Shown piece after piece: positions 7,271 through 64,000 of a DNA stretch of 64,000 nt. Below the pieces are notes generated by a model, which was not told the origin of the DNA, ran no database searches, and saw only the letters and a program-made list of their open reading frames with translations. How positions within the stretch are numbered: the first letter of the stretch is position 1; each line of letters opens with the position of its first letter. The stretch comes from Acidobacteriota bacterium (GTDB taxonomy: Bacteria > Acidobacteriota > Terriglobia > Acidiferrales > UBA7541), in the NCBI GenBank assembly GCA_016201285.1, contig JACQDE010000019.1, positions 1-64,000 of the forward strand, read 5' to 3'. A program made the position numbers and the translations under genes.

Positions 7271-7294
7271 GCTGAAGTCCTTTCGGAGAAACCC

Positions 7295-43264: not shown

Positions 43265-44293
43265 ATGCGTCCCTACCTGCTCATCACGATTGACGCGGAG
43301 TCCGACGACCTGTGGGCGCGGCGGGCGGAGCTGACGTTCGAGAACATCGGCGCGATGCCGCGGTTGCAGGAATTCTTCGAGCGCCACGGCGTGCGGCCCA
43401 CTTGGCTCGTCACCTACCCGGTCGCCACAAGCGAAATCGGCCGCCACGTGTTCGGTGAAATTGCGCGGCGCGGCAGCGCGGAAATCGGCAGCCACATGCA
43501 CGTCTGGACCACGCCACCGCTCGCGCCGCTGACGCCGAACGACCACAAATACTGCCCACTGGCCAGCGAGATTTCCTATGAGCAGCAGTACGAAAAGATG
43601 CTCAACGTCACGCGGGCCGTGGGCGAGCTGGCCGGCGCGGCGCCGCGCGCGTACCGCGCCGGGCGCTACGCCCTCGACGGCAACGGCCTGCGCGTGCTCG
43701 AGGCGCTCGGCTACACGGTGGACACCAGCGTCACGCCGCTGCTGAGCTGGCGCGAGCCCGGCCACGATGGCGGCTGGCGCGGCCCGGACTTCACTCGCGC
43801 GCCGCTCGAGCCCTACCATCCCGCCAACGAAGACCTCACGCGTGCCGGCGCGAGCCCCATTCTCGAAGTGCCCGTTTCGTTTTTCCTGACGCGTCCGCTG
43901 CCCTCGGGGCTGGCACGCTGGCTGGTGCGGCTGCCGCGCAACAACAACCTGGTCCGCGCGCTGCGCTGGAGCGGCGTAGTGCGCCACTCCTGGCTGCGGC
44001 CGGGGCGCGAGGTCAGCGGCCGCACGCTGGCCGGTGTAGCCCGCGCGCTGATCGCCGCAGGCATTCCCGTGCTCAACGTGATGTTCCACTCCTCAGAGAT
44101 GGCCGCGGGCACCAGCCCGCATACCAAGACGCAAGCGCAGGTGGAAGAATCATACGAGCAACTGGACTATCTCTTCCGCGCAGCGATTGGCGGGATGGGC
44201 GCGCAGCCCATGACGCTTTCGGAATTTGCCGCGGCCCACGCCGCCGCGCAGCCGGCCGCGCCCCCATTGGCGGATTCCCATGCGCGAGGATAA
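43265..44293 (+). CDS. Polysaccharide deacetylase (NodB-like) family protein
   Basis: 342 residues, no signal peptide. The NodB fold is recognisable: catalytic and metal Asp in LLITIDAESDD, the His pair in EIGSHMHVWTTPP, the AYRAGRYALDGNGLRVLEALGY strand and a late His in NVMFHSSEM. Members remove acetyl groups from N-acetyl-sugars in glycans. The absence of a secretion signal suggests action on a precursor in the cytoplasm. It is the first gene of a tight operon: the ATP-grasp gene starts inside its last codons and the PHP gene follows after 9 bases. Confidence 0.85.
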   Translation: MRPYLLITIDAESDDLWARRAELTFENIGAMPRLQEFFERHGVRPTWLVTYPVATSEIGRHVFGEIARRGSAEIGSHMHVWTTPPLAPLTPNDHKYCPLASEISYEQQYEKMLNVTRAVGELAGAAPRAYRAGRYALDGNGLRVLEALGYTVDTSVTPLLSWREPGHDGGWRGPDFTRAPLEPYHPANEDLTRAGASPILEVPVSFFLTRPLPSGLARWLVRLPRNNNLVRALRWSGVVRHSWLRPGREVSGRTLAGVARALIAAGIPVLNVMFHSSEMAAGTSPHTKTQAQVEESYEQLDYLFRAAIGGMGAQPMTLSEFAAAHAAAQPAAPPLADSHARG

Positions 44294-45515
44294 CCAGCCC
44301 GCGGTCCTGTTGCTGGACGGCAACTCGCTTGCTTCGCTCGCGTTCACGCGTTCGCTCGGCCGCGCGGGCATTCACGTCACCGTTGCCGACCCTGCGCTGG
44401 ACGCGCCGGTGCGCCACTCGCGCTACTGCGCTCGCTACCTGCAATATCCTTCCCCACTCGACCACCCGGAAGCCTTTCGCGAATGGCTGTTCCACGAAGC
44501 GGCGAACGGCGGGCACGGCCTGCTGATCGGCACGACGGACTACACGCTGCCACTGCTCGACGAATGGCGCGAGGCACTGAGCGCGCATCTGCGCGTGGCT
44601 CTGCCCGCGCGCGATGCCTTTCGCCGCGCCTACGACAAGGCCGCAACCCTCGAGCTCGCGCGCGAAGCCGGCCTCGCAATCCCGCCCACGCATCTGCCCC
44701 GGAGCATGGAAGAGTTGGAGCGCCTGGCGGCCGGGAGCCGCTGGCCGCTGGTGATCAAGCCGCGATCGAGCGTGCTGGCCTCACAGCAGCGCCGCAGCGC
44801 CGCCGGTGTCGAGTACGCATGGAATGCGGAGGAGTTGCGCCAGCGCTACGCCGCTGTGCACGAGAAAAGTCCGTGGCCGATGGTGCAGGAATACGTCAGC
44901 GGCGCCGGCGCGGGCTGCTTCTTCCTGATCCGCGACGCCTGCGTGCTCGCGCAGTTTCAGCACCTTCGCATCCGCGACAAAAATCCCACCGGCTCCGGAA
45001 GCTGCCTGCGCCTGAGCGTCCCGCCCGATGAAGCGCTGATGGCCTCGAGCGAGCGCTTGCTCCGCGGCATGGGCTGGGATGGCCTGGCGATGGTGGAGTT
45101 CAAGGTGGACGCGGACGGCATGGCCTATCTGATGGAAGTGAATCCGCGGCCATGGGGATCCATGCAGCTCGCTGTCGAGGCGGGCGTGGATTTTCCGCTG
45201 CTGTGGTACCGTGTGTGGACCGGCGCGCCGGTGGAGCCCGTGCTCAACTATCAGAGCGGGATTCTGTGCCGCTATCTGGTGGGAGATCTCAAGCATCTGG
45301 AAAGCGTGCTGAACGGGCCGCCGCCCGGCTGGCGGCTGCCGTATCCGAAGCGCCTGCCGACGCTACTGAATTTTCTGCGTTTCTGGGGACGCAACCTGCG
45401 CTATGACGATTTCGCCGCCGGCGACTGGCGTCCCGGCCTGGCCGAGTTGGGCGCGCATTTCCGCGAGCTTGCTGGACACCTCTTCCGCAAGCTGCGGCGG
45501 GCCGGCGGGGCGTGA
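44280..45515 (+). CDS. ATP-grasp ligase of unknown substrate
   Basis: About 411 residues from the ATG at 44280, overlapping the deacetylase stop by 14 bases. An N-terminal Rossmann-like region (VLLLDGNSLASLAFTRSLGRAGIHVTVAD) is followed by ATP-grasp subdomains: WPLVIKPRSS (ATP-binding Lys), WPMVQEYVSGAGAG, then GLAMVEFKVDADGMAYLMEVNPRPWGS with the metal-binding Glu and Asn. It resembles carboxylate-amine ligases related to carbamoyl-phosphate synthase large chain and found in many glycan gene clusters. It should join an acyl-phosphate made from a carboxylic acid to an amine, plausibly the free amino sugar released by the deacetylase. That pairing is an inference from order only. Confidence 0.85.
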   Translation: MREDNQPAVLLLDGNSLASLAFTRSLGRAGIHVTVADPALDAPVRHSRYCARYLQYPSPLDHPEAFREWLFHEAANGGHGLLIGTTDYTLPLLDEWREALSAHLRVALPARDAFRRAYDKAATLELAREAGLAIPPTHLPRSMEELERLAAGSRWPLVIKPRSSVLASQQRRSAAGVEYAWNAEELRQRYAAVHEKSPWPMVQEYVSGAGAGCFFLIRDACVLAQFQHLRIRDKNPTGSGSCLRLSVPPDEALMASSERLLRGMGWDGLAMVEFKVDADGMAYLMEVNPRPWGSMQLAVEAGVDFPLLWYRVWTGAPVEPVLNYQSGILCRYLVGDLKHLESVLNGPPPGWRLPYPKRLPTLLNFLRFWGRNLRYDDFAAGDWRPGLAELGAHFRELAGHLFRKLRRAGGA

Positions 45516-45524
45516 CGAGACGGA

Positions 45525-46340
45525 ATGATCTATCGCGGCGCATTCCACGCGCACTCCAAGCACTCCTATGACGGCCAGCAGCCGCTGCCCGCGCTCTGCG
45601 CCGAGTTGCGGCGGCGTGGCGATCACTTTCTTCTGCTGACCGAACACGACGACACGCTCGACGCCGCCGCCTACGAGCGCATCCGCGCCGAGTGCGCCGC
45701 ATTGAGCGACGCGCAGTTCCTGGCCGTGCCGGGTCTCGAGATCCGCTGCTGGCGCACGGAACGCGAGCAGTGGCACATTGCCGCGCTCGGCGTGGGGGCG
45801 TGGATTCCGCGCGGGCCGATCCCCGAAGTGGTGGAGAACATCCGCCGCGCCGGCGGGCTTTCCGTATTCCTGCATCCGCACAAATACTCCCGCCAGATTG
45901 AACTCGCAGAGATTGCCCGGTTCGACGGCCTCGAGTTGTGGAATGGAAAGGAAGACGGCCATTTCGCGCCGCGCTGGAGAACCCTGCGGCTGGCGCGTGC
46001 GGCGGCTGCTCACCGCACCGGCCCGGTGCTCTATTGCGGGCACGACCTGCACGATTTCGATGGCATCGGCCCGCTCGCCCTGGAGATCGAAACGGACGCG
46101 CTGACGCAGGCGGCCGTTCTCTCCCGCCTGCGGGACGGCAACTTCATGCTGCGCGCGAGAGGTTTCCGCTTTCCAGCGGCCCGCGGGCCAAACGCCCTGC
46201 AATCGCTCGGGATGCTCTGCTGGCGCGGAACCTACGAAAGCTATCGAGCGCTGCGCCGGCTGCCGCTGGTGGGCGGCGCGGTCAGCGCCGCGCGGCGCGC
46301 ATGGCGGCCCTCGGATTCCGGCCGCAGACCGGAAGAATAA
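45525..46340 (+). CDS. PHP-domain phosphoesterase-like protein
   Basis: 271 residues. The PHP metal motifs are visible: GAFHAHSKHSYDG (HxH), LLTEHDD, VPGLEIRC, FLHPHKYS and CGHDLHDFDG. PHP proteins are di- or tri-metal phosphoesterases such as histidinol phosphatase, polymerase PHP domains and bacterial tyrosine phosphatases. The C-terminal 50 residues (GMLCWRGTYESYRALRRLPLVGG) are basic and may contact the membrane. It is the third gene of the deacetylase, ATP-grasp, PHP operon and ends before a strong hairpin. Confidence 0.85.
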   Translation: MIYRGAFHAHSKHSYDGQQPLPALCAELRRRGDHFLLLTEHDDTLDAAAYERIRAECAALSDAQFLAVPGLEIRCWRTEREQWHIAALGVGAWIPRGPIPEVVENIRRAGGLSVFLHPHKYSRQIELAEIARFDGLELWNGKEDGHFAPRWRTLRLARAAAAHRTGPVLYCGHDLHDFDGIGPLALEIETDALTQAAVLSRLRDGNFMLRARGFRFPAARGPNALQSLGMLCWRGTYESYRALRRLPLVGGAVSAARRAWRPSDSGRRPEE

Positions 46341-46658: not shown

Positions 46659-49600
46659 ATGAGTCTTCCATCGCGGCAAGTCTTTGATACCAATTCGAAA
46701 TCCGCTGGTCACCTGTGGGCCATTGTACTGATCGTGGCGCTGGGCCTGCTCCAGACCGCATGTGGTGGGGGATTCGCCCCGCCGGGCAGCCAGCCTGGTT
46801 TCGGCAACAATGCTGGCGGAGGCGGCGGCGGCACAATTACGGTTCCCCCGGCGGGGCTTCGCCTGACGCTTTCGCCCGCCTCGGCCAGCGTGGCGCCGGG
46901 CGGCCAGGTGCAGTTGAACGCCGTCATTCAAAACGCAACGAATCCCACGCTCAACTGGGCGGTGAACGGCGTGCCCGGCGGCAACCTGACGGTGGGCACC
47001 ATCAGCAGCACCGGCGCCTACCAGGCGCCCACGGTAGCACCCACTCCGAACACGGTTACGGTGACCGTCACCAGCCAGCAGGATCCGACCAAGTCCGCCT
47101 CGTCTTTGATCGTCATCACCACGCCGCCGACGCCGGTGTCCGTCAGCGTGAGTCCGGCCACCGCCACGCTGCAGACCGGTTCGGTGACGGCGTTCAACGC
47201 GCTCGTCACCGGCACAATAAACACCGCCGTGACCTGGAGCGTGAACGGCGTTCCCGGCGGAAGCGCCACGGTCGGCACGATTACGGCCGCCGGCGTGTAC
47301 ACGGCGCCGGCCAGCGTGCCCGCGCCGGCCACGGTGAGCGTCACCGCCACCAGCGCGGCGGATCCCACCGCCTCGGGCGCGGCCTCGGTGACCATCCAGC
47401 AGCGGGTGCAGGTAAGCGTCTCGCCGGGCAGTGCGCAGGTGTTGACGACGGCGAGCCAGCAGTACACGGCCGCAGTAAGCGGCACAGCCAACATGAACGT
47501 CACGTGGGGCGTCAACGGCATCGCGGGCGGCAACGCGACCTTCGGCACGATTGATAACACCGGCCTCTACACTGGGCCAAACGCCGTGCCTACACCCACC
47601 ACCGTCACCATCAGCGCCACCAGCGTAGTGGATCCCACGGCCATCGGATTTGCCAGCGCCACGATTCTGCTTTCGCCGGGCGTCACTGTCACGGTCACGC
47701 CGGCCAGCGCCACCGTCTCCATCAACCAGACGCTGCAACTCACGGCCACCGTGGCCGGTCTTTTCCGCGGACTGCCACCTTCGCAGCAGGTGACGTGGTA
47801 CGTGAGCACCGTGGTCGGCGGCAATCAGACGGTGGGCTTCATCTCGCCCGCCGGACTCTACACCGCGCCGGCCGCAGTGCCGTTCCCCAACACCGTCACC
47901 ATCCAGGCCTTCAGCGTCACCGACAACACCGCCGTGGGCACGGCGGTTGTGACCATCACGGCGCCGACGCTGGTCACCGTCACGGTTGCGCCCGCCACCA
48001 CCTCCGTCCAGGTGGGCACTTCGCAGACCTTCAGCGCCACGGTGGGCGGCACTTCGAATACAGCGGTCTCTTGGAGCGTGAACGGCATCCCGGGCGGCAA
48101 CGCCACTGTCGGCACGATCACGGCGGCGGGCATTTATACCGCGCCGGCTTCCGTGCCCTCGCCGGCTACGGTCACCGTGACCGCGACGAGTTCCGCGGAC
48201 CCGAGCGCCTCTTCGACCGCGCAGGCCACCATCCTGGCTGCGCCGGTGCCGATCGCCGTTTCCGTCAACCCCGGCAGTGCGAGCCTGAATCTGCAGCAGC
48301 AATTGCAGTTCAACGCCACCCTCACCGGCACCACCAACCAGGCGGTGACGTGGGCCGTGAACGGCGTCACCGGCGGCAACGCTACCGTCGGCACAGTTTC
48401 CGCGGCGGGTGTGTACACGGCCCCGGCCACGCTGCCTTCCCCGGCGACGGTCACCGTGCGCGCCACCAGCGTGGCGGACAACACGAAGTTCGCCACCGCC
48501 AGCGTCACGCTTCTGCCGCCTTCGACGATTTCGCTCACGCCGTCTGCCACCACCGTGCAGGTCGGCCTTGGCGCGCAGTTTTTCGCCACCGTCACCGGCG
48601 TTGCCAACACCGCCGTCAACTGGGCCGTCAACGGCATCGTCGGCGGCAACAGCACCGTAGGCACGATTGACGCCAACGGCCTCTACATCGCCCCGGCCGC
48701 CGTGCCGACACCGAATCCGGTCAGCATCACCGCCACCAGCGTGGCCAATTCGAACCTGGTGGCCACTTCGACGGCCACGATTGCTGTGCCGGTCACGGTC
48801 ACCGTGGCGCCCGCCACCGCCACGCTTGCGCTTTCTGCCACGCAGCAGTTCACCGCGACCGTCACCGGCACCGCCAACACTGCCGTGACTTGGAGCGTGA
48901 ACGGCATCGCGGGCGGCAACGCCACCGTCGGCACCATTGACAACACCGGCTTCTACACTGCGCCAGCCAGCTTGCTGTTGAGCGGCAACTTCACGATCAC
49001 CGCCACCAGCGCCGCCAACCCCACGCAGACCGGGACGGCCTCGGTGCTCGTCACCGTTCCTGTAGCCGTTTCGATTTCGCCGCTCACGCCGAGCGTGCAG
49101 GTGAGCAACACGCAGCAGTTCAGCGCCACCGTTACCGGCACGGCCAACACCGCCGTGACGTGGAGCGTCACCGGCGCGGGCTGCGTCGGCCCTGCCTGCG
49201 GCACGATTACCGCCGGCGGTCTCTATGCCGCTCCAGTCACGGCCCCGGCGCCGAACACGGTCACGGTAAAAGCCACCAGCGTCGCCGACATTACGAAGTT
49301 CGCGTCCACCACCGTCACCATCACCACGCCGCCCATTTCCGTATCGGTGAATCCGGCCACGGCCACGGTTTCCGCCAACGGCAGCCTGCAATTCGCCGCC
49401 ACGGTGGCCAACTCGTCGAACCAGAGCGTCACGTGGACGGTCACCGGCACAGGCTGCGCCGGTCCGGCTTGCGGCGCGATCAGCGCTGCGGGCCTGTACA
49501 CCGCGCCCGCGCTGGCGCCCACGCCGAATACGGTGACCGTCACCGCCACGAGCGTAGCCGACAACACCAAGTCCGCTTCGGCCACGGTCACCATCCTGGC

Positions 49601-52600
49601 CGTCGTTTCCGTCACGGTGAGTCCGACCACCGCCTCAGTCCTCGCCGGCGGCACGCAGCAGTTCACGGATACCGTCACCGGCACCACAAACACAGCGGTC
49701 ACCTGGAGCGTGACCGGCAGCGGCTGCGCCGGCGCCACCTGCGGCACAATTTCCGCGACGGGCCTCTACACCGCCCCGACGGTCGCGCCAACGCCCAACA
49801 CGGTGACGGTGCGCGCCACCAGTGTGGCCGACAACACGAAATTCGCCACCGCCGCGGTGACCATCTCCATCATCAGCGTGACGGTGAATCCAGCTATCGC
49901 AAACGTCTCCGCCAGCGGCAGCCTGCAATTCAGCGCTGTAGTCAACGGCAGCGTGAATCAGAGCGTGACGTGGAGCGTCACCGGCACCGGTTGCGCCGGC
50001 GCCGCCTGCGGCACGATCACCGCGGCCGGCCTCTACACCGCACCGGCTGTTGCGCCTGCACCCAACACCGTGACGGTGCAGGCGACCAGTGTGGCCGATA
50101 GCACCAAGTCCGCGACTTCCACCGTGACCATCGTCGCAGTGATCGCGGTCTCGGTGAGTCCCAGCAGCGCCAACGTGCTCACCAACGGGACACAGCAGTT
50201 CACCGCCACCGTCACCGGCTCCGCCAACACTTCGGTCGCCTGGGACGTGAACGGCGTGGCGGGCGGGAACGCCACTGTCGGCACGATTTCTGCCGCCGGC
50301 CTCTACACCGCGCCGGCCGCGGTGCCTTCGCCGGCGACGGTGACGGTGCGTGCCACCAGCGCCGCGGACAACACCAAGTCCGCTACGTCCTCCGTCACGA
50401 TTGCCGCGCCGGTGATTTCCGTGAGCGTGAACCCGGGCACGGCCAGCGTCTCCGCCAGCGGCAGCGTGCAGTTCAATGCCACGGTGAGCGGCACGGCGAA
50501 TCAGAGCGTCACTTGGACCGTGACCGGCGCGGGCTGCGCCGGCGCCGCCTGCGGCGCCATCTCCGCCGCGGGTTTCTATACCGCGCCGGCCATTGCGCCC
50601 TTCCCGGCGAGCGTGACAGTGACCGCCACCAGCGTGGCGGACAACACCAAGTCCGCTATCGCCAGCGTGACCATCGTTGCCATCATCGCCGTCGCCGTCA
50701 GTCCCAACTCGGCCACTGTGCTGACCGGCGCAACGCAACAGTTCACCGCCACCGTCACTGGCTCCGCCAACACCATCGTCACTTGGAGCGTGTCCGGCTC
50801 CGGGTGCAGCGGGATCGCCTGCGGGACCGTCAGCGCCACGGGCCTCTACACCGCGCCGGGGGCAGTGCCTTCGCCCGCCACGGTCAGCGTCACGGCGACG
50901 AGCGTGGCCGACGGCACTAAGTCCGCTTCCGCCACGGTCACCGTGGCCGCGCCTATTTCCGTCAGCGTGGCGCCCGCCATCGTCAGTCTAGTCACCAGCC
51001 AGAGCCAGCAGTTCACCGCCACCGTCAGCGGCACCACGAACCAGACGGTCACGTGGAGCGTGAACGGCGTCGTGGGCGGCAATGCCGCCAACGGCACGAT
51101 CAGCCCCTCCGGCTTCTATCGCGCCCCGGCGCTCGTGCCGACGCCAAACACCATCACCATCACCGCCACCAGCGCCGCCGACTCGACAAAGACCGCTTCG
51201 GCCACGGTGACGATTACTTCGCCGCCGGTGGGCGTGCTCGTCTTCGTCTTCCCGAAGAACCGCAACCTGCCCATCGGGCGCACGCAGCAGTTCACCGCGG
51301 AAGTGATCCGCGCACCCAACAACGCCGTCAACTGGACCATTGGCGGAACTGGCTGCGCCGGTGCGGGCAACCCCTGCGGCACGATCAGCGCGACGGGCCT
51401 CTACACGCCGCCGGCCACACCTCCGGCGCCGGCCAGCATCACCATCACCGCCACCAGCCAGGTGGACGCGACCGCCTCGCAGACAGTGAACGCGAAGATC
51501 GTGGTGGGCGTCAGCATTTCGCCGTCCTCGGCGAAGCTCAATCCGAAGGGCACGCAACAGTTCACGGCCGCGATTGCCGGCTCGGCGAACACCAGCGTCA
51601 CTTGGGCCGTGGTCGGCAGCGGGTGTTCCTTGCCCGGCAACCCGTGCGGCACGATTTCCGCCACCGGCCTCTACACAGCGCCCAGCTTCGTGCCGCGCCC
51701 GGGCATGTTCACCATCACCTCTACCAGCGCCGCTGATCCCACCGAACCGGGCGTCGCCACCATCGAGATCTTGCCCGCCAGCGTGCAAATCTCTCCGGCC
51801 ACCGTGCAGGTGTTGCCCGGCGGGCAGATGCAGTTCATCGCCGTGACTAACATCTACCCGCCGCCGGTTTCCACCCAGCCGGTTCTTACCTGGTCAGTGA
51901 ATGGCGTCGTGGGCGGCAATGCCACCCTCGGCACGATTTCAACATCCGGGCTCTACATCGCCCCGCAGACAGTTCCTACGCCCGCCAGCATCACTGTGGC
52001 CGCCGCCAGCACGGTCACGCCGACGACGACTGCCAGCTCGACGGTCACCATCGGCGCGCCCACCGGCGCCAGCCCTGTGACCCTGCTTCCGAGTCTCCAG
52101 AAGGTACGGCCCTACGATGTCCCCACGGGCGCCGCCACGCTCACGGTCACTGCCGCCGGGAACCAGTACGCCTCCTGGCAGGTGCTTATCGAGGGCCGCA
52201 ACGAAGACCTCACCGGCGTGGACGTCACACTGAGCGACTTCACCGACACCAGCGGCAACCGCATCACCGCGGCCAGCAACGCCGTCATCTATCTCGAGAA
52301 ATTCATCAACGTGCCCTACGTCTCGCGTGCGCAGAGCGTGCCGGGCGAATGGCCCGATCCACTGGTCCCGAAGAAGGACCCGTTCGCCAACGAGGTCCGC
52401 AACGCCTTCCCGTTCGGCGTGAACCGCATCTCGCCGGCCCACAAAATCTATCCGCGCTTGGCGGGCGACACAGTGAATACCGGCATGGGCGACGGGCGTG
52501 TGGCCCCCGGCGGCGTCTCCACGGCCAGCAGCTTCCGTTTCTTCGTGGTCACTATTGACCGCGCCGGTACGATTGGCGCAGGCTCCGCCACCTTCAAGTG

Positions 52601-55337
52601 GTCCAACGACGGCGGCGTCACGTTCCAGCAAATCAACCAGCCCATCCCCAACTCCAACGCTATCCCGCTCTCCGATGGCGTGACCATTGCCTTCCAGCCC
52701 GGCACCGTCACCGGCGTCACCGACTTCAACGTCGGCGATACCTACTGGATCTTCGCCGGGCCCATCCGCCAGCAGCCCGTGTGGATCGATCTCTTCGTCC
52801 CCAGCACTGCGCCGGCCGGCGCCTACACCGGCACCGTGACCGTGATGCGCAGCGGCAAGACCAACGTGACCCTGACCGTCACCTTGAACGTGAAGAATTT
52901 CGTGTTGCCGGTCAGCTCCTCCATTCCCGCGTTCTTCGGCATGAACTGGACGAGCCTGCTCAACGCCCATTACCTGGCCACGTCCGGCTCGCAGACGCTG
53001 GCGCTCGGGCAGCTCTACGGCCAGGCCTGCCTGATCAATCGCATCAGTTGCGACACGGTCAGCAATTTCCAGCCGGTCTTCACTTTCAACCCGGATGGGT
53101 CCATCGCAACCTTCGATTACAGCACCTTTGACCAGGCCACCGGGCCGCTCGCCAACGGCACCATCACGCCGCGCAACGAGCAATTGAGCCTGATCCGCCT
53201 GCCGCGCGTCGGCTCCACCGCCAGCCAGCAGTACTTCGCCACGCAGCATATGCTCGGCGAATTCGGTCGCCGCGGCTGGCGCGCCCGAGCCTTTGATTTC
53301 AGCTACGATGAGCCGGTCACCTCTTCCGACTTCCTGGCCGCGATGGACCGCGTCAGCCTGGTCCGTGCGGTGGACCCGCTGCTCCGCGCCACCGTGACCG
53401 CGGACATCTCCAAGTTCAATTACAACCTGATCGGCTATAACAACGTCTGGACGCCCAACTGGACCACGCTGGAGAATAAGGAATTCTTCAGCGGCCCGAA
53501 TCCCTCGGCGCGCGCCTTCTACGACGCGCCGCTCGCCACTGGCGACGAGCTCTGGTGGTACGAATCCTGCCTGACCCACGGCTGCGGCTCCACCGGCGCC
53601 TCGCCGCAGCACGACAACTATCCCAACTTCAACGTGGATGTCCCGGCACTCTTCAACCGCTCTTGGGGTTTCTCCGCCATTCAGCCGTATGGAGTCACCG
53701 GCCTGTTCGGCCAGAACGCCGTGCTTGCCTACTCGCGCTTCTTCCAGATGGCGGCGCCGCGCGTGGACGTCTGGGACAGCGTGTACTACCTCGGCGGCAA
53801 CGGCGATGGCACGCTCTTCTATCCGGGCCGCCCGAGCGATATCGGCGGCACGACGCACGTCCCGGTCGAATCGCTCCGCCTGAAGATGATCCGCGACGCC
53901 CTGGTGGATCAGGAGGTTGCCATCTTCCTCCAGAACCGCGGCGACGGCCCGTTCGTGGCCGACACCATCTTCCAGGAGGCCAAGAACCTCACGTCGGTGC
54001 TGGCCGACCCGAACCTGTTCGTTTCGAGCAGCCGCGCGCTGATCAACCAGGCCGGCTCGCCACCGCTGCCGCCGCCCATCAACGTACCCGCCGCGGGCGG
54101 ATGCTACACCGATCCCGTCACCGGCAACCGCGTCTGCCGCGTCACCGACCGCGCGCTGTGCGCCCGCGCTGCGCACCACTTCTATTCCTATTGGCCCATC
54201 TGGAACCAGACCGGCACGCACATGATCGTGGAGTGCCTCAGCTGGTCGGGCGCTCCATTGGCTTCGTCCACAGCCATCCTCGTCCGTGATTCGGATCTCG
54301 CGGTGCTGGGAAATGTGCTGGCGGGTATGCCTGCGGGAGTCAGCCTGAAAACAAGCAATCTGTTTTGGGCGTGGAACAATCCAAACAAATTCTTCGGCTA
54401 CGGCACCGGTGCATCCAAGACGCAGTTGTGGGAATGGAACCCATTTACGAAGACGGGCGCGCTGATCAAGGATTTCGCGGGCTTGACGTTCTTCGGCCGA
54501 TCGCTTACGAGCATTACGCTTTCGTACGTCAGTTTCGACGATAACTATTTCCTGCTCGAAGGCAACGACACCACAGGTCTCACCACAATCCTGTTTGTTT
54601 ACGATCGCCTGGCAAATACCGTTCTGATGCCAGGGCTGGATCTGAACCAGTTCCCCTACTACGACGAGTCGGTGATGACCAAGGCCAACAAGCCCTATGT
54701 GCGCGCAAACGACTCGAGCAACATTCCGCAGGCCTGGGTTTACAGCCTGGACTTTACGACAAAGATTCGACCCTCCGAAGGCGGGCATCACGCCCACGGT
54801 TTGCTGCCGAACGGCACGCCCGTTCTCACCAAGGCATCTTCCAACCGGAGCTGCCCAGCCGGATCAATTTCCGGAGTTCCGGGAAGCAGCTGGAAGCCGA
54901 CCGCCGTCGTGGTCGACGAAACCGTGGACACCACGGGAGCGGGCCAGAATGCGGATCCGCTCGCTTCGGTGTTCCTCAAGTTGGGCTGCGGCGTGCCGGG
55001 CCAGCACAACTTTGACCACTGGTCCTGGAACAACACCCAGAAAGACCGCTTCTTCAATTCGAGCCTGAGCTACAGCGGTTTTGCGTCCGACCCGATCGCC
55101 TTTGGCATTCTCCGCTTCCGGCTGCAATTCAATGCCCTGGGCAACATCACCGGCGATCAGATTGACCTGCTTGCCCATCATCGCTCGGACGACACCAAGT
55201 ACGGCTACTTCGCTAAGCCGCGCGCCAGTTGCAACCAGCAGGGCTCGCGCTGCATCTTCTCCAGTACGATGACCATCCAAACCAACAACCTGGACCCGCA
55301 AGAGCATCTCTATGTCGTGGATGGCTTCCCACCATAA
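46659..55337 (+). CDS. Giant lipoprotein: 19 Ig-like repeats, DUF4091 module, His-rich propeller-like module
   Basis: 2892 residues from the ATG at 46659 (GGAGCGCC upstream; the frame is open to 46584). A lipoprotein signal ends in LLQTAC with the lipid-bearing C35, followed by a Gly-rich linker. Residues about 65-1800 are 19 tandem Ig-like repeats of 85-95 residues. Residues about 1806-2465 form a DUF4091 (GH123-like) module with EWPDPLVPK, DFSYDEP, WWYESCLTHGCG, GGNGDGTLFYPG and SLRLKMIRDALVDQE. Residues about 2475-2892 form a beta-rich module with GGHHAHG, GQHNFDHWSWNN and AHHRSD. The last two modules match the separate genes at 56848-58920 and 55443-56828. It should be a surface lipoprotein presenting glycan-active modules on a long stalk. 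Confidence 0.88.
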   Translation: MSLPSRQVFDTNSKSAGHLWAIVLIVALGLLQTACGGGFAPPGSQPGFGNNAGGGGGGTITVPPAGLRLTLSPASASVAPGGQVQLNAVIQNATNPTLNWAVNGVPGGNLTVGTISSTGAYQAPTVAPTPNTVTVTVTSQQDPTKSASSLIVITTPPTPVSVSVSPATATLQTGSVTAFNALVTGTINTAVTWSVNGVPGGSATVGTITAAGVYTAPASVPAPATVSVTATSAADPTASGAASVTIQQRVQVSVSPGSAQVLTTASQQYTAAVSGTANMNVTWGVNGIAGGNATFGTIDNTGLYTGPNAVPTPTTVTISATSVVDPTAIGFASATILLSPGVTVTVTPASATVSINQTLQLTATVAGLFRGLPPSQQVTWYVSTVVGGNQTVGFISPAGLYTAPAAVPFPNTVTIQAFSVTDNTAVGTAVVTITAPTLVTVTVAPATTSVQVGTSQTFSATVGGTSNTAVSWSVNGIPGGNATVGTITAAGIYTAPASVPSPATVTVTATSSADPSASSTAQATILAAPVPIAVSVNPGSASLNLQQQLQFNATLTGTTNQAVTWAVNGVTGGNATVGTVSAAGVYTAPATLPSPATVTVRATSVADNTKFATASVTLLPPSTISLTPSATTVQVGLGAQFFATVTGVANTAVNWAVNGIVGGNSTVGTIDANGLYIAPAAVPTPNPVSITATSVANSNLVATSTATIAVPVTVTVAPATATLALSATQQFTATVTGTANTAVTWSVNGIAGGNATVGTIDNTGFYTAPASLLLSGNFTITATSAANPTQTGTASVLVTVPVAVSISPLTPSVQVSNTQQFSATVTGTANTAVTWSVTGAGCVGPACGTITAGGLYAAPVTAPAPNTVTVKATSVADITKFASTTVTITTPPISVSVNPATATVSANGSLQFAATVANSSNQSVTWTVTGTGCAGPACGAISAAGLYTAPALAPTPNTVTVTATSVADNTKSASATVTILAVVSVTVSPTTASVLAGGTQQFTDTVTGTTNTAVTWSVTGSGCAGATCGTISATGLYTAPTVAPTPNTVTVRATSVADNTKFATAAVTISIISVTVNPAIANVSASGSLQFSAVVNGSVNQSVTWSVTGTGCAGAACGTITAAGLYTAPAVAPAPNTVTVQATSVADSTKSATSTVTIVAVIAVSVSPSSANVLTNGTQQFTATVTGSANTSVAWDVNGVAGGNATVGTISAAGLYTAPAAVPSPATVTVRATSAADNTKSATSSVTIAAPVISVSVNPGTASVSASGSVQFNATVSGTANQSVTWTVTGAGCAGAACGAISAAGFYTAPAIAPFPASVTVTATSVADNTKSAIASVTIVAIIAVAVSPNSATVLTGATQQFTATVTGSANTIVTWSVSGSGCSGIACGTVSATGLYTAPGAVPSPATVSVTATSVADGTKSASATVTVAAPISVSVAPAIVSLVTSQSQQFTATVSGTTNQTVTWSVNGVVGGNAANGTISPSGFYRAPALVPTPNTITITATSAADSTKTASATVTITSPPVGVLVFVFPKNRNLPIGRTQQFTAEVIRAPNNAVNWTIGGTGCAGAGNPCGTISATGLYTPPATPPAPASITITATSQVDATASQTVNAKIVVGVSISPSSAKLNPKGTQQFTAAIAGSANTSVTWAVVGSGCSLPGNPCGTISATGLYTAPSFVPRPGMFTITSTSAADPTEPGVATIEILPASVQISPATVQVLPGGQMQFIAVTNIYPPPVSTQPVLTWSVNGVVGGNATLGTISTSGLYIAPQTVPTPASITVAAASTVTPTTTASSTVTIGAPTGASPVTLLPSLQKVRPYDVPTGAATLTVTAAGNQYASWQVLIEGRNEDLTGVDVTLSDFTDTSGNRITAASNAVIYLEKFINVPYVSRAQSVPGEWPDPLVPKKDPFANEVRNAFPFGVNRISPAHKIYPRLAGDTVNTGMGDGRVAPGGVSTASSFRFFVVTIDRAGTIGAGSATFKWSNDGGVTFQQINQPIPNSNAIPLSDGVTIAFQPGTVTGVTDFNVGDTYWIFAGPIRQQPVWIDLFVPSTAPAGAYTGTVTVMRSGKTNVTLTVTLNVKNFVLPVSSSIPAFFGMNWTSLLNAHYLATSGSQTLALGQLYGQACLINRISCDTVSNFQPVFTFNPDGSIATFDYSTFDQATGPLANGTITPRNEQLSLIRLPRVGSTASQQYFATQHMLGEFGRRGWRARAFDFSYDEPVTSSDFLAAMDRVSLVRAVDPLLRATVTADISKFNYNLIGYNNVWTPNWTTLENKEFFSGPNPSARAFYDAPLATGDELWWYESCLTHGCGSTGASPQHDNYPNFNVDVPALFNRSWGFSAIQPYGVTGLFGQNAVLAYSRFFQMAAPRVDVWDSVYYLGGNGDGTLFYPGRPSDIGGTTHVPVESLRLKMIRDALVDQEVAIFLQNRGDGPFVADTIFQEAKNLTSVLADPNLFVSSSRALINQAGSPPLPPPINVPAAGGCYTDPVTGNRVCRVTDRALCARAAHHFYSYWPIWNQTGTHMIVECLSWSGAPLASSTAILVRDSDLAVLGNVLAGMPAGVSLKTSNLFWAWNNPNKFFGYGTGASKTQLWEWNPFTKTGALIKDFAGLTFFGRSLTSITLSYVSFDDNYFLLEGNDTTGLTTILFVYDRLANTVLMPGLDLNQFPYYDESVMTKANKPYVRANDSSNIPQAWVYSLDFTTKIRPSEGGHHAHGLLPNGTPVLTKASSNRSCPAGSISGVPGSSWKPTAVVVDETVDTTGAGQNADPLASVFLKLGCGVPGQHNFDHWSWNNTQKDRFFNSSLSYSGFASDPIAFGILRFRLQFNALGNITGDQIDLLAHHRSDDTKYGYFAKPRASCNQQGSRCIFSSTMTIQTNNLDPQEHLYVVDGFPP
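46851..52060 (+). repeat. Tandem array of 19 Ig-like coding repeats
   Basis: Units are about 252-288 bases each (most near 265). Two forms alternate. Eleven units have NGVxGGNATVGTI in the middle (units 1-8, 13, 16, 19). Eight units have TGxGCxGxxCGTI with a Cys pair instead (units 9-12, 14, 15, 17, 18). The stretch ATSVADNTKSA recurs almost unchanged in units 6 and 10-15, showing recent copying. Confidence 0.85.
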
Positions 55338-55442
55338 ACCCATGGAAGCAGACCAGCGGGGCCGGACGGCCGGCCCCGTGGCGCAGGTGGAATTCTCTGG
55401 AGCGTCCCCCCTCCTTCGACGTTGAATCACGGAGGAATCCTC

Positions 55443-56828
55443 ATGAACAGATGGCTGGCCGCAGTGCTGTTGTCTCTCGTGCCCCTCTCTCTGCTCGCGC
55501 AGGAGCGCAAGGAAGAAGACCGCAGGGAAAAGCCGGATCGTCAGCCGAAGTTGCAGGCGATTACGTTGCCCGCCGTCGGCGGCTCCTACGTGGATCCGAG
55601 CACCGGCAACCGCATCTGGCGCGTGAGCGACCGCGGCCTCTGCACCCGCGGCGCCAAGCACTACTATTCTTACTGGCCGGTGTGGAACGCGGACGGCTCG
55701 CATCTGCTCGTCGAGTGTCAGGGCTGGCTCGGCAGCCGCGACTCTTCCACCATCCTGCTTGTGCGCGATAAGGATTTGAAGGTCGTCGGCGATGCCCTCG
55801 GCAGTGCCCGCAGTTTCAACAAGGGCCATCTCTTCTGGTCGTGGAAAGATCCTCAGGCTTTCTACGCCTTCCGCGATTCCGAAGTCTGGAAGTGGAACCC
55901 CTTTTCCGGAAAAGGCTCCCGCATCGCTAGCCTGGACAATCTCAAGGTGGGCGAATCCTCCGTTCGCTCCATCGTGCTCGCGTACGTGAGTTTCGACGAC
56001 CGCTACCTGCTCCTCGAACTGCAAGGGCCAAACCTGCGCCGCCAGAAACCCAACCCGCACGACACGCTCGGTCTGCTGACCTACGACATGCAAGCTGGAA
56101 AAGTGGCCGGGCTGCTCGACATCACGACCTGGCGTTTCTACGACGAAGCGGTCTTCACCAAGGACAATCATGTATGGGTGCGCATGACCGACGACGCCGG
56201 CGCACCGCAGAGCTTGCGCTTCTCGCTCGATTTCAGCGAGCGCAACCGCGTCGCCGAAGGCGGCCACCACGCCCACGGGATCCTGCCCGATGGCTCGCCC
56301 GTGGCGGTGAAGGAAGCCAGCAACCGCGATTGCCCGCCCGGTTCGCCCAGCGGCAATCCCAACGATAAGGAGTACCCGGCGAAAGGCTGGAAGCCCACCG
56401 CCGTCCTGCTGGACCCGCGCGTGGATACCGCCGGAGCGGAGCGCAACGCTCCGATTGCTTCCATCCTCTTCAAGCTCGGCTGCCAGATCAAGGGCCAGCA
56501 CGAGTTTAGCCATTTTTCCTGGAACAACTCTCAGCCCGACGTGTTTTTCGGGGAAACGTGGAGCTACGGCTCCGCGGAAGGCAATCCGATTGCCGACGCC
56601 ATCATCCGCGTGCGGTTGAAGTTCGATGGCGGGGGGAAAATCAGCGGCGACGAGATTGACGTGCTCGCGCACCACCGCTCGGACAAGAGACACGGATATT
56701 GGGCCACCCCGCGCGTCTCCTGCAACCAGCAGGGTACCCGCTGCCTCTTTGCCAGTGCCATGTCGAACGGCGCGAACGACTCCGATGGCGGGCCGAACCT
56801 GTACATCGTAGACGTGCCGAAGCGTTAG
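55443..56828 (+). CDS. Secreted His-rich propeller-like protein, paralogue of the giant's C-terminal module
   Basis: About 461 residues from the ATG at 55443 (ACGGAGGAATCC upstream). Signal peptide MNRWLAAVLLSLVPLSLLAQ, a charged linker (ERKEEDRREKPDRQPK), then one module (about 38-461) that aligns along its whole length with residues 2475-2892 of the giant. Shared blocks include PAVGGSYVDPSTGNRIWRVS, KHYYSYWPVWN, AYVSFDDRYLLLE, EGGHHAHGILPDGSPV, LGCQIKGQHEFSHFSWNN, LAHHRSD and PRVSCNQQGTRCLFAS. The clustered His suggest a metal site as in propeller-fold polysaccharide lyases, an inference only. It is 105 bases after the giant and 19 bases from the convergent DUF4091 gene. Confidence 0.8.
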   Translation: MNRWLAAVLLSLVPLSLLAQERKEEDRREKPDRQPKLQAITLPAVGGSYVDPSTGNRIWRVSDRGLCTRGAKHYYSYWPVWNADGSHLLVECQGWLGSRDSSTILLVRDKDLKVVGDALGSARSFNKGHLFWSWKDPQAFYAFRDSEVWKWNPFSGKGSRIASLDNLKVGESSVRSIVLAYVSFDDRYLLLELQGPNLRRQKPNPHDTLGLLTYDMQAGKVAGLLDITTWRFYDEAVFTKDNHVWVRMTDDAGAPQSLRFSLDFSERNRVAEGGHHAHGILPDGSPVAVKEASNRDCPPGSPSGNPNDKEYPAKGWKPTAVLLDPRVDTAGAERNAPIASILFKLGCQIKGQHEFSHFSWNNSQPDVFFGETWSYGSAEGNPIADAIIRVRLKFDGGGKISGDEIDVLAHHRSDKRHGYWATPRVSCNQQGTRCLFASAMSNGANDSDGGPNLYIVDVPKR

Positions 56829-56847
56829 GGTCGTTCGGGGATTGCGT

Positions 56848-58920
56848 TTAGCGGGGGGAGTCTGCCGGCGGTGATTTCTCCGCGATACGACGCGCGAGCG
56901 TGCGGCGCAGCGCCACCCACGCCTGCGGGTCGGCGGACCAGTGGCGGGCGTCCTGCGCCACGCGCTTCACTTCCTGCCGCAGAAATTCCTCTTGCCCCAG
57001 TTTTCGCAGAAGGTAAGCATACTCCGCATCGATGAAGGAGTCGCGAATCATCTTCAGCCGCAGCGATTCAATGGCGATGTGGTGCTGGCCGCCGATCTGT
57101 TCCGGCCGGCCCGGATAGAACAGCGTGCCGTCGCCGTTCCCACCGAAGTAGTAGATGCTTTCCCAGGGATCGGCCGGGCGCGGAGTCTTATCCCAGTTGT
57201 AGTGCAGCGCAAAGACCGTATCCCAGTAGAGCACGCCGGAGACGTCGTAGGTCACCGCGCTGAGCAGGCCGAACACGCGATTAGCCGCGCCGGAAGCGTC
57301 CACCATGGTGCTGGGCCAGCCGGTGTCTTGTGCAGCGCGGCCTTCGCCGCCGCAACCGTGGCTCATACATGACTGGTACCACCAGAGCGTGTCGCCCGCC
57401 TTCAGCCGCGCGTTGTAGTCCGCCCGCGGCTGCATCTTCCCCCAAAGCCACGACTGCACCGGAAAATCCGACGGCGTCGCAAAGGAATTCACCAACGGAC
57501 ACCAGCGGGTAACAATGCCGAACAGCGCATCGTTGAGCTGCGTGGTCGCCAGCCGCGGAATCTGCGGCTCCGCGTCGCGGACGCGCCGGCCGCGCACACG
57601 CAGTTGCTCGAAGTCCTGCAGGCTGTGCGGCTCGTCGAAGCTGTAGTCGAACAGGCGGTCGAACCAGCCGCGCTCGCGGGCGTGCTTCGCGAAATCCTTC
57701 ACCACGCTCGCAAATTGTGCGTCGTTCAAGCCGGCGAACTTCGGCAGCCGCAGCGACGTCCATCGCGCGCCGCGCGGCGTGCCCTGGCCGTCCATGAACG
57801 CAGCGGCCGCTCGGTCCAGCCGCGAGTAGTCCGTGCGCGCGATGGAGCCGTCCGGCTTGAATTCGTACGCCGGCGCGAAGTCCCGCAGGCCGTCAATGGT
57901 GATGGAGTTGCGCAGCGCCGCGCGCGCGTAGGACTGCATCAGCTCGAGCGATTGCTGTTCGCTCGCCTTTCCGCCGAAGTGCGCTGCGGCCACGCCGCTC
58001 GAGGTGAAACCGAAAAAACTCGCCAGCGTGAACGTCGAGGGAATCGCAAAGTTCAGGACTTCGATGGAGAGCGGCAGCCGCAACGCCGCGCCGCCCGCCT
58101 TGACGCGGACTTGGCCGGCGTAGGTGCCGGGCGCGGCATCCGCGGGCACTTGCACGTCCACCCAGACGGGCTGGTGACGCTGCGGCCCAGCAAAGATCCA
58201 GAATTCGTCCCCGGCGAGAAAATCGTTGCCGAGGCCGGCGCCGCGGAAGGCCACGCTGACGCCCTGCTCGAGCGCCGCCGGCTTCCGCGAAGTGGTGCGC
58301 GCCGCGGACGGCGTCGCCGGGCCCGGCTCGCTCCACCACTCGAAGGTGGCCGTGCCCAGCGGCCCGGGGCGCACAATTCGCACCACGTAGCGCTTCGGCG
58401 TCCCGCCGGAGTAATGCCCGCCGGCAACGGCATCACCATCACTCCGCGGGAGTGAAAGCGTCCGGCCTTTTTCCGCGGGATACCACTTGTATGCGCGCGA
58501 GATGCGGCGCAGGTCGTAGGGGAAGGCGTTGCGCCGCTCACCGTACTCTGGGTCCACCTTCGGAATCAGCGGGTCGGGCCACTCGCCGAAGTCTCCCTCC
58601 ACGTTCGAGCGGTAGAAGATGTTGAGGAACTCTTCGCGGTAGATGATCACGTTGGCCGCGGGAATCCGCGACGCTCCGCGGGCGAACCCGGAGACGTCCA
58701 CATCCACGCCCGGGCAGTCCTCGCCGGACGCGGTCACCACCACTTGAAAAGAGCAGATTTCGTTCCGCGCGCAGACCAGCGACGCCGACGACGACGGGAG
58801 CGCGCCGTACGGCCGGACCTTGACCGGGCCTTCGATGATTCGCGCGGAGCAGCGGGGTTGCGCGGGAATCGCGCCCGCCGCGAGGAGAAAAACCGCCAGG
58901 CATGACTGCAAGGCGCGCAC
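56848..58920 (-). CDS. Secreted DUF4091 (GH123-like) protein, paralogue of the giant's middle module
   Basis: About 690 residues from the GTG at 58920, where a signal peptide begins (RALQSCLAVFLLAAGAIPAQ); the frame is open to 58989 but would overlap the GT2 gene. It aligns with residues 1806-2465 of the giant: NVIIYREEFLNIFYRS, GEFGEWPDPLIPK-like text (read DFGEWPDPLIPK), FWIFAGPQRHQPVWVDVQVP, FDYSFDEPHS, WWYQSCMSHGCGGEG, GGNGDGTLFYPGRPEQIGG and SLRLKMIRDSFIDAEYAYLL. DUF4091 is the C-terminal domain of GH123-type glycosidases; the DEP and late acidic residues could be catalytic. It is the final gene of the leftward glycosyltransferase operon, 23 bases after the GT2 gene. Confidence 0.83.
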   Translation of the reverse strand: MRALQSCLAVFLLAAGAIPAQPRCSARIIEGPVKVRPYGALPSSSASLVCARNEICSFQVVVTASGEDCPGVDVDVSGFARGASRIPAANVIIYREEFLNIFYRSNVEGDFGEWPDPLIPKVDPEYGERRNAFPYDLRRISRAYKWYPAEKGRTLSLPRSDGDAVAGGHYSGGTPKRYVVRIVRPGPLGTATFEWWSEPGPATPSAARTTSRKPAALEQGVSVAFRGAGLGNDFLAGDEFWIFAGPQRHQPVWVDVQVPADAAPGTYAGQVRVKAGGAALRLPLSIEVLNFAIPSTFTLASFFGFTSSGVAAAHFGGKASEQQSLELMQSYARAALRNSITIDGLRDFAPAYEFKPDGSIARTDYSRLDRAAAAFMDGQGTPRGARWTSLRLPKFAGLNDAQFASVVKDFAKHARERGWFDRLFDYSFDEPHSLQDFEQLRVRGRRVRDAEPQIPRLATTQLNDALFGIVTRWCPLVNSFATPSDFPVQSWLWGKMQPRADYNARLKAGDTLWWYQSCMSHGCGGEGRAAQDTGWPSTMVDASGAANRVFGLLSAVTYDVSGVLYWDTVFALHYNWDKTPRPADPWESIYYFGGNGDGTLFYPGRPEQIGGQHHIAIESLRLKMIRDSFIDAEYAYLLRKLGQEEFLRQEVKRVAQDARHWSADPQAWVALRRTLARRIAEKSPPADSPR

Positions 58921-58943: not shown

Positions 58944-59642
58944 TCAGGATGTGAACCGGATGCGCAGCAAGTGCTTCAGGTAGCGCCACACCTGCGCCGG
59001 GCCCATTTTGCTGCCGCCGTGGGTCCGCTCTTCGAACGTGTACGGCACTTCCGCGGCCTTTTCGTAATTGCCGCGCGCCAGCACTTCCAGCAGGATCTTG
59101 TAGCCCAGCGGCTTCAGCGTCCGGCCTTCGATCACCGAGCGGCGCAGCAGGAAAAATCCGGACATGGGGTCCTTTACGCGGCGGATTCTTCCGGGCAGCA
59201 GGATGGTGGCCATCACCGTGGCCGTCCAGGAAATGATGCGCCGGCGGAATTTCCAGTCGCTCACGCTGCCCTGCTCAACGTAGCGGCTGGCGATGGCCAT
59301 CTGCGCGCTGCCGCTGCGCATCGGCTCGAGAAGCTTCAAGAGGTGTTCCGGCGGGTGTTGCAGGTCGCCGTCCATGACGCCCAGGATGTCGCCCTGCGCG
59401 ACGCGCCAGCCGGCGAGCACGGCGGTGGAAAGGTCGCGCTCGTTCACGCGCACCACCAGCTTCAGCCACGGGCGCTCGGCCTGCAACCGGCGCACTTCGT
59501 CGGCCGTGCCGTCGGGACTGCTGTCGTCCACAATGATCAGTTCATAGACATCGCCGCTCGCGGCCAGCACTTTGCCGGTGCGTTCCACCAGTTGTTCGAT
59601 ATTGGCGCGTTCTTTGTAAGTCGGGACGACGAGTGAGATCAC
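58944..59642 (-). CDS. Dolichol-phosphate-mannose synthase-like GT2 glycosyltransferase
   Basis: 232 residues. The GTG start overlaps the TGA of the upstream gene (GTGA at 59639-59642); an ATG at 59684 would overlap further. The GT-A fold begins ISLVVPTYKERANIEQLV, with LIIVDDSSPDGTADEVR and the nucleotide-metal motif VMDGDLQHPPE. DPMSGFFLLRRSVIEG follows, typical of polyprenyl-phosphate mannosyl- or glucosyltransferases. It lacks the C-terminal membrane helices of some relatives. It probably makes a lipid-linked sugar that feeds the GT-C enzyme encoded just upstream in the same operon. Confidence 0.9.
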   Translation of the reverse strand: MISLVVPTYKERANIEQLVERTGKVLAASGDVYELIIVDDSSPDGTADEVRRLQAERPWLKLVVRVNERDLSTAVLAGWRVAQGDILGVMDGDLQHPPEHLLKLLEPMRSGSAQMAIASRYVEQGSVSDWKFRRRIISWTATVMATILLPGRIRRVKDPMSGFFLLRRSVIEGRTLKPLGYKILLEVLARGNYEKAAEVPYTFEERTHGGSKMGPAQVWRYLKHLLRIRFTS

Positions 59643-61336
59643 GGGCGATTCTCCGCTGCGGGCGCGAGCGCGCTGGCCGGACATCCGGAAGTCCGGGGGG
59701 ACAATTGAAAATATCGCCGGCCTTCGATCTGGAACGACGGCAGCAGGCAGTACTCGTTCTGCAGGAATGACGCAAACTGCTTGAGCGAGGGCCGCGGGTG
59801 CTGCTTCTCGCTCCAGGCGGCTTCCGGCGGGTTCTGCCCCAGCGCCAGCCGGTCCATCACAAAAGCGCGCCCGCCCCGCGACTCCACAGTCTTCACCTTT
59901 TCGTTGAAATAGTTCATCCAGTCGGTGCGGTCCCAGGCGTATTTGGTGTAGTCGTTGGTGGTGTTCAGGAAGCGCGCGCCGCCGTACAGATTCGTCATCG
60001 TCAGGTAGGTGATAGAAGCATCCCGGCCGAAATTGACAGGCAGGTCGTCCGGCTTCAAGAACGGCCGGACCGTTTTCATCTCCGCTTCCAGCACCATGTA
60101 GCGGCGCTGGGAGGGCAACAGAGACTCCACGAAATTGTCCGCGGCAATGAAGGCGAGGCAGGCCACCAGCATGCCGGCGAGCAGGCGCGGCCGGGGAACC
60201 CGGCGCAGCAGGTCCTGCACGGCCAGCGCGCCGAACACGTACTGCGAGAGCATGGAGGGCATGAACCGCTGCACGTCGCTCCCCAGCCAGCCGACGCTGA
60301 AGTACATGTTGATAGCCAGCGGCACGTAGAGAGCGCCGCAAAGAATGCGCATCCGCGTGTCGCCTTTCCACATGAGGTAAAGCGGATAGAGGTACACCGG
60401 CGCCAGCAGCAGCCAGACCAGCACGAACTTTCCGAGCTGCCACGGCAGCGACGCCATCTTCACCAGGTGCGGGTCCTTCAGCATCAGCCCGTTGATCATG
60501 TAGGGCAGCTCGTATATCGCCAGGATGCCGTGCGCCTGGCCGAAGGAAGCCTTCATCGGGCTCAAGGCGTCAAACTGCATCGGCTGCGTGCCCGCCGCCG
60601 CCATCCATGCCTTGATCTCCTGCCGCTCGAGCGGGATCTGCACATACAGCAGGCAGGAAACGGCCAGCACCCCCACCAGTATGATTCCCGTCAGGCTGTA
60701 CACGGTCAAGTAGCTGCACCGGCGGAAAAACGATTTCGCTGGCGGCAGGAAAAACAGCAACAGCCCCGCCCCGATGGCGTTAAACGCGTGCACCAGCCAG
60801 AACGTGCACGCAAAGCATGCATACGTGGCCGCGCCGAACGCAATCACCAAGCGGCGGCCCTCGCTTATCTCCTTCCCCATTTGCAATGCAAGGTAATAGC
60901 CGGCGAAAGCCAGCAACATCGAGGTGGAGTAGAGCCGCCCGGACCCGACGTAGATCCACACACAATGCGCCGTGGCGTAGGCGAACGAGCCGGCAAATGA
61001 GATCGGGCGCGAATTCGTCAGCTCGAATAGGATGCAGTAGAGCAGCATCACCGACAACGCCGCGGTCGTGAAGTCCCAGAGATCCAGGACCGCCCTCATG
61101 CCGGTCTCGATGCCCACGTGGTTCAGCCACTGCCACAGCCACAGCGGCAGCATGCGCTGCTCCAGGTGGCGAAATTCCAGCAGCGCGCGGATCTGGCCCG
61201 TCTCCGCCCAGTACACTGTGTCGAGCGCGTCGTTCTCGTCCCACGAAAAGCTCATCATGTACCCGGCCAGGATCAGCAGGAAGATGAGCAGAGCCTTGCC
61301 GAAGCGTGCGCTCAGGCCGGGGATGGAGGAATTCAT
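59639..61336 (-). CDS. Polytopic membrane protein, probable GT-C glycosyltransferase
   Basis: About 565 residues. The ATG at 61336 overlaps the stop of the upstream GT2 gene (ATGA at 61333-61336). About ten hydrophobic segments follow a short cytoplasmic start; the first outer loop holds an acidic pair (SFSWDENDALDTVYWAETG), as in GT-C enzymes, then HLEQRMLPLWLWQW. A soluble C-terminal domain (about 425-565) contains RDASITYLTMTNLYGGARF and WDRTDWMNYF. No named family was recognised with certainty, so the glycosyltransferase role rests on topology, the acidic pair and the operon. Confidence 0.7.
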   Translation of the reverse strand: MNSSIPGLSARFGKALLIFLLILAGYMMSFSWDENDALDTVYWAETGQIRALLEFRHLEQRMLPLWLWQWLNHVGIETGMRAVLDLWDFTTAALSVMLLYCILFELTNSRPISFAGSFAYATAHCVWIYVGSGRLYSTSMLLAFAGYYLALQMGKEISEGRRLVIAFGAATYACFACTFWLVHAFNAIGAGLLLFFLPPAKSFFRRCSYLTVYSLTGIILVGVLAVSCLLYVQIPLERQEIKAWMAAAGTQPMQFDALSPMKASFGQAHGILAIYELPYMINGLMLKDPHLVKMASLPWQLGKFVLVWLLLAPVYLYPLYLMWKGDTRMRILCGALYVPLAINMYFSVGWLGSDVQRFMPSMLSQYVFGALAVQDLLRRVPRPRLLAGMLVACLAFIAADNFVESLLPSQRRYMVLEAEMKTVRPFLKPDDLPVNFGRDASITYLTMTNLYGGARFLNTTNDYTKYAWDRTDWMNYFNEKVKTVESRGGRAFVMDRLALGQNPPEAAWSEKQHPRPSLKQFASFLQNEYCLLPSFQIEGRRYFQLSPRTSGCPASALAPAAENRP

Positions 61337-63989: not shown

Positions 63990-64000
63990 GTGATTCTTCG

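Follow-up and report, generated by a model that had tools for sequence, protein, structure and literature searches.

A predicted stalked surface protein with GH123 and PL22-like modules encoded beside free copies of both in an acidobacterial exopolysaccharide locus

Hydrolases encoded within exopolysaccharide (EPS) operons are known from PelA, PslG and PgaB (PMC9894940, PMC9075953, PMC5933820), where the operon making the glycan also encodes the enzyme that cleaves it. Among glycoside hydrolases of family GH123, the Group 1 enzyme NgaCa (PDB 8k2f/8k2g) has an open cleft and acts as a beta-N-acetylgalactosaminidase that strictly releases oligosaccharides, and repeating exopolysaccharides have been proposed as the substrate of such oligosaccharide-releasing enzymes (Sumida et al. 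2024, PMC11087588). Here we describe a locus in a 64,000-nucleotide stretch of an Acidobacteriota contig (the window, on contig C54 of a draft genome of 3.67 Mb), in which a giant putative lipoprotein carries a GH123 module and a PL22-like propeller on a stalk of immunoglobulin (Ig)-like repeats and is followed by separate secreted versions of both modules. As in the PelA, PslG and PgaB systems, putative cleaving enzymes are encoded together with glycan-making genes; unlike those systems, the enzymes belong to other families, and a surface stalk is combined with paired free copies. We consider it somewhat probable that the enzymes of this locus cleave the cell's own extracellular exopolysaccharide, in free and stalk-mounted forms.

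The features that carry this comparison are as follows; G346 is a genome of another genus from our survey of 349 genomes of the class, and GC3 is the G+C content at third codon positions.

46659..55337, + strand: giant stalked protein, 2892 aa, with Ig-like repeats, then a GH123 module, then a PL22-like propeller (re-reading of open reading frames, blastp, Pfam)
46659..46763, + strand: signal peptide and probable lipobox, Cys35, LLQTAC, atypical at -3 (sequence; G346 orthologue)
46854..52043, + strand: stalk of 19 Ig-like (Big_2) repeats of ~90 aa (Pfam Big_2, 68 bits; motif copies spaced 89-97 aa)
52083..54077, + strand: fused GH123 (DUF4091) module, residues 1809-2473 (38% identity to P0003; NgaCa 8k2f, E 8e-15)
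53307..53312, + strand: Asp2217-Glu2218, DE catalytic motif retained in the fused GH123 (alignment)
53712..53714, + strand: Gln2352, replacing the conserved Trp/Tyr at the position of W431 in the GH123 enzyme NgaLy, GLFGQ versus G.LYW (alignment; no frameshift)
54078..55334, + strand: fused PL22-like propeller, residues 2474-2892, GC3 below the rest of the gene
55443..56828, + strand: solo secreted PL22-like propeller P0002, 461 aa, with signal peptide
56848..58920, - strand: solo secreted GH123 P0003, 690 aa, GTG start, convergent to the giant (PF13320)
57631..57636, - strand: Asp429-Glu430, DE motif of P0003

The open frame of the giant is uninterrupted, with a GC3 of 0.85. Compared with the lipobox pattern [LVI][ASTVI][GAS]C after the signal peptide, the giant reads Q-T-A-C (LQTA-C35), and its G346 orthologue has the canonical L-S-G-C. 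In BLASTP comparisons, residues 2474-2888 of the giant match P0002 at 48% identity (E 1e-132) and residues 1815-2473 match P0003 at 38% identity across 675 columns (E 2e-132). All of the sequence blocks quoted in the initial annotation were found, all in register between the copies, which rules out chance as the source of the likeness. Its proposal that the two end modules of the giant are homologous to the two neighboring proteins is therefore upheld, as are its description of the second module as a propeller, now backed by AlphaFold models and profile-profile comparison, and its placement of both modules in glycan-acting families (GH123; PL22-like); module searches did not assign the separate genes to unrelated families. 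The first module had been labeled DUF4091; as DUF4091 is now the Pfam family GH123_cat (PF13320), this module is not a protein of unknown type. In the surroundings of the tail-to-tail junction, promoter- and terminator-like sites are no commoner than in shuffled sequence.

P0003 matches PF13320 with 32.6 bits (curated cut-off, 23.1). The fused copy is absent from the reports of the genome scan for PF13320, though it matches the same solved enzymes as the solo copy. A profile of 21 GH123 relatives gave a full-length match to NgaCa (8k2f; E 1.4e-141), far above the other solved GH123 groups, and alignment mapping shows that P0003 keeps all nine cross-group signature positions (D116, W253, D429, E430, Y515, G562, W566, Y602, and R621). 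By sequence, both window copies are assigned to GH123, P0003 as a Group 1-like member; the homology of the fused copy stands, while its activity is not assured. NgaCa is the closest of the solved relatives, sharing with the window proteins full-length homology, the DE motif and DUF4091; the window proteins differ from it in an insertion of ~115 aa in the N-terminal domain, the Ig stalk, the paired solo copy, and the Gln that takes the place of Trp at the W431 position in the fused copy.

The propeller was more difficult to place. P0002 matched no Pfam family at E up to 1 and no NCBIfam model, and had no significant match to the PDB by sequence; a profile of the propeller family only touches the oligogalacturonate lyase 3pe7 (E 0.03). 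An AlphaFold model of P0002 (predicted local distance difference test, pLDDT, 77; predicted template modeling score, pTM, 0.80) returned oligogalacturonate lyases of PL22 as its top three Foldseek matches (E 5e-14), the next unrelated fold following at 1.7e-8. A second model, of a relative 21% identical (pLDDT 89.5), gave the same top three (E 7e-14), with the next unrelated fold at 4e-10. Profile-profile alignment (hhalign) to PF14583 relatives yielded E 2.6e-6 with a 27-member propeller profile and 1.7e-10 with a 16-member profile; the strong PDB matches of those relatives are only 3pe7 and 3c5m, with one further chain at E 0.098. An origin from TolB propellers was rejected, since hhalign gave 8e-4 over only 122 columns (about one third of the length) against the two PL22-like values.

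In the numbering of 3pe7, we take the metal site of PL22 to consist of Q350, H353 and H355 (QxxHxH) plus H287, and the base to be H242. The window propellers resemble the PL22 lyases (3pe7, 3c5m; PF14583) in fold, in the start motif DP.TG.R..R.(T/S)D, and in two histidines at or near H242 and H287: one histidine is invariant in 27/27 family members and lies near H287, and another, present in 25/27, is at the H242 position. Equivalence of the invariant histidine to H287 is a proposal, because the alignment offsets it by two residues. The window propellers differ from PL22 in being secreted or surface-borne where PL22 enzymes are cytoplasmic, in having no Pfam match, and in lacking QxxHxH, and identity in structural alignments is about 11-15%. 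By its predicted structure, the propeller is thus a PL22-like fold and a distant relative of oligogalacturonate lyase, and by the tests made it is no member of PL22. A second secreted family (L114-L127, in many genomes of the class) matches PF14583, has H.Y.LEPN where PL22 has QxxHxH, and finds strong PDB matches only in 3pe7 and 3c5m; this second family is a possible bridge between the propellers and PL22. One relative's propeller carries a Solibacter-type C-terminal domain (TIGR03437), which points to Acidobacteriota.

Judged by gene content, the surrounding locus is an exosortase-A-type exopolysaccharide locus. We know of no mention of stalked GH123 or PL22-like proteins among the described components of XrtA/PEP-CTERM EPS loci. 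The neighbors within the window are the following.

43265..44293, + strand: polysaccharide deacetylase-like protein (Pfam Polysacc_deac_1, 24.0 bits)
44226..45515, + strand: ATP-grasp protein, start uncertain (Pfam ATPgrasp_Ter; blastp)
58944..59762, - strand: family 2 glycosyltransferase (Pfam Glycos_transf_2, 105 bits)
61333..62559, - strand: family 2 glycosyltransferase
62556..63998, - strand: Wzy-like or exosortase-A-associated O-ligase (Wzy_C, 53 bits; TIGR03097 below cut-off)

Outside the window, the same contig encodes a TIGR03013 sugar transferase (453.7 bits; cut-off, 393.4), an exosortase (214.9 bits; cut-off, 105.6) that scores 210.8 as XrtA (cut-off, 208), amidotransferases, a Wzx-like protein and a heparinase-like protein. 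The locus shares with the XrtA/PEP-CTERM EPS locus (Haft et al. 2006, PMC1569441) the TIGR03013 transferase, the exosortase, the Wzy/O-ligase-like protein and the amidotransferase. In 67 genomes, TIGR03015 was tried as an indicator of XrtA loci; its matches all stayed below cut-off and lay mostly on other contigs. This marker is not clean, and a general linkage to XrtA loci is therefore not claimed. The ATP-grasp family recurs between the members of GH123 pairs in the g168 genomes. A PHP-type protein (45525-46340), encoded after the ATP-grasp gene and before the giant, has no Pfam match at 1e-3, and its synteny is kept in G346 (54%).

A profile search of genome contigs with both module alignments gave no match, so relatives were drawn from species genomes only. 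In G346, the block from 28 to 64 kb of the window is syntenic, and a solo GH123 and an Ig-GH123 giant are convergent; there is no propeller on that giant and none between it and the solo gene. In each of G312, G311, G317, and G324, a GH123 protein that is long or Ig-type is convergent with a solo GH123 across 2-4 genes, beside family 4 glycosyltransferase (GT4) operons, and in G338 the stalked and solo genes are on separate contigs. The pairs of G346 and these four genomes mostly adjoin glycosyltransferase operons, and across 16 loci the glycosyltransferase group 1 family accounts for 20 of the 63 open reading frames less than 4 kb from GH123, a count made with no random-locus control. The relatives' stalked GH123 proteins stop directly after GH123. 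Propellers show a pairing of their own in G314, G310, and G311, where a long protein with a C-terminal propeller precedes a solo one. Of the 349 genomes, 53 carry GH123, 25 the propeller, and 11 both, where 3.8 would be expected (hypergeometric p 3e-4, uncorrected for shared ancestry). Apart from the window genome, ten genomes have both, and in five of these (G346, G391, G412, G453, and G521) separate genes for GH123 and the propeller share a contig at distances of 4 to 24 kb. The predicted recurrence beside glycosyltransferase, Wzx or Wzy operons is thus borne out, and the two modules also co-occur elsewhere, in these five genomes as linked separate genes.

The history of the double module is not that of a simple fusion. 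In trees, the solo and stalked GH123 of the window are placed in separate clades, where each groups with the corresponding G346 orthologue (support 100/99), so the duplication that gave rise to them predates these genera. The two propellers of the window are sisters (100/99), and at the passage from the fused GH123 to the fused propeller, GC3 at synonymous codons drops from 0.88 to 0.75 (p 1e-7). Probably, then, the propeller was joined later to an already existing stalked GH123; its addition looks recent, because codon usage steps at the joint and the fusion is seen in one genome. A one-event fusion of both neighbors is rejected by the old GH123 paralogues with their separate orthologues, and the initial reading of a fusion of two pre-existing neighbors finds no support in that form, as only the propeller is a late arrival. 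In g168 genomes, by contrast, each genome's two GH123 copies group as sisters (support 80 to 100). An extreme case is G312 (L046, G312:C96), where the copies at 6386-8059 and 11895-15221, ~4 kb apart, share 91% DNA identity with tracts of 97-99%; similar sisters occur in L047-L051. The near-identical tracts in G312 suggest gene conversion between the inverted GH123 copies.

In the mechanism that we favor, a GH123 endo-type beta-N-acetylgalactosaminidase and a PL22-like propeller would each be secreted as free proteins and would also be carried by a surface lipoprotein, on its long stalk of Ig-like repeats. The stalked enzymes would sit within the polysaccharide layer and there shorten or set free the polymer that the neighboring exosortase-A-type locus produces. 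In the window genome, a single stalk would bear the two modules, since a propeller gene copy joined the end of the older stalked GH123. Several observations weigh against this interpretation. The presence of N-acetylgalactosamine in the local polysaccharide is a guess, and NgaMg, a Group 1 GH123 enzyme, was inactive on every tested substrate (PMC11087588). PF14583 matches 0/27 members of the propeller family, in which the QxxHxH metal motif is not retained. The GH123-propeller fusion was found in this genome only, among those searched, and the fused GH123 keeps eight of the nine signature positions, the exception being Gln2352. The earlier suggestion that the two modules act together is plausible but unproven, as the fused GH123 has lost a conserved substrate-binding residue.

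The loss of this residue favors the main rival explanation, in which the stalked modules bind rather than cut: they would hold the cell's own polysaccharide as an adhesin or matrix scaffold that tethers EPS, while the solo copies cut or bind as well. At the Gln2352 position, every other aligned GH123 has Trp or Tyr, and the Ala mutant of NgaLy W431 is considerably weakened (PMC11087588). The fused copy also has Val at position 634, where nearly all others in the alignment have Tyr. A frameshift as the origin of GLFGQ was rejected, the reading frame being clean there, and the orthologous giant of G346 still has GILYW; the change is thus particular to the giant of the window. Since an aromatic substrate-binding residue is lost, the fused GH123 may be weakened or may act mainly in binding. 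The missing metal motif of the propeller and the long Ig stalk, typical of adhesins, would also suit a scaffold. However, the fused GH123 retains the DE pair and the Y392 position, the G346 giant has the intact motif, and the closeness of stalked and solo copies in g168 genomes suggests the same activity in both formats. On balance we regard a pure scaffold as unlikely.

A further alternative, which seems distinctly unlikely, is that the enzymes break down glycans of foreign origin (mucin-like, chondroitin-like, or other polymers in soil) as food, and that their position beside EPS genes reflects only the tendency of surface-polysaccharide islands to collect genes of this sort. PL22 enzymes function in the utilization of pectin, which would fit a role in scavenging. 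So would the action of characterized GH123 enzymes outside Group 1 on possibly foreign N-acetylgalactosamine glycoconjugates (PMC11087588). However, no genes for transporters, SusCD-like proteins or sugar catabolism were noticed in the vicinity; the neighbors are instead glycosyltransferases, Wzx/Wzy, a deacetylase, an exosortase and an amidotransferase, and the GH123 pair is conserved in glycosyltransferase operons across genera. That the fusion arose by chance through tandem duplication, lacks functional meaning and joins modules that work in unrelated steps would account for its restriction to one genome and for the GC3 drop expected of a recent addition, but it is very improbable given the linkage of the separate genes in five other genomes and the intact open frame of the giant.

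Self-EPS hydrolases are known already, and neither enzyme family is wholly new in kind. From a literature search that left out most subscription journals, we know of no description of the pairing of stalked and free forms, of PL22-like proteins as a family of EPS loci, or of the double module. It is possible, and we propose only tentatively, that such loci encode an undescribed class of extracellular polysaccharide-editing machine of Acidobacteriota-type bacteria, with GH123 endo-hydrolases and a new PL22-like lyase family, free and Ig-stalked, inside EPS loci; the single stalk bearing both modules in this species would then cut two linkages of the self-polymer at one place. The conserved position in EPS loci and the paired formats make the cell's own polysaccharide a testable candidate substrate for Group 1 GH123 enzymes, and the propeller family, for which Pfam has no model, may represent a new branch of PL22-like carbohydrate-active proteins. 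The paired formats also suggest how slime-forming bacteria of soils might, as a general strategy, set cutting enzymes at a fixed distance from the cell.

Three further observations concern GH123. The N-terminal insertion of ~115 aa occurs only in the clade of the window and G346; in P0003 it spans residues 129-247 (window 58180-58536) with the pattern ATF.W....G ... GV.VAF ... DF..GD.FWIFAGP, and the counterpart region of the giant carries it too. A third GH123 of G346 (L044, G346:C21, 9903-12887) has a short Ig-type N-terminus, Asn-Glu for Asp-Glu and GMFYY for G.LYW, and on these substitutions is probably altered or inactive. In L104, L105 and L108, from several genomes of the class, GH123 directly precedes genes for a histidine kinase and a response regulator of the LuxR type, possibly forming a regulatory unit with them.

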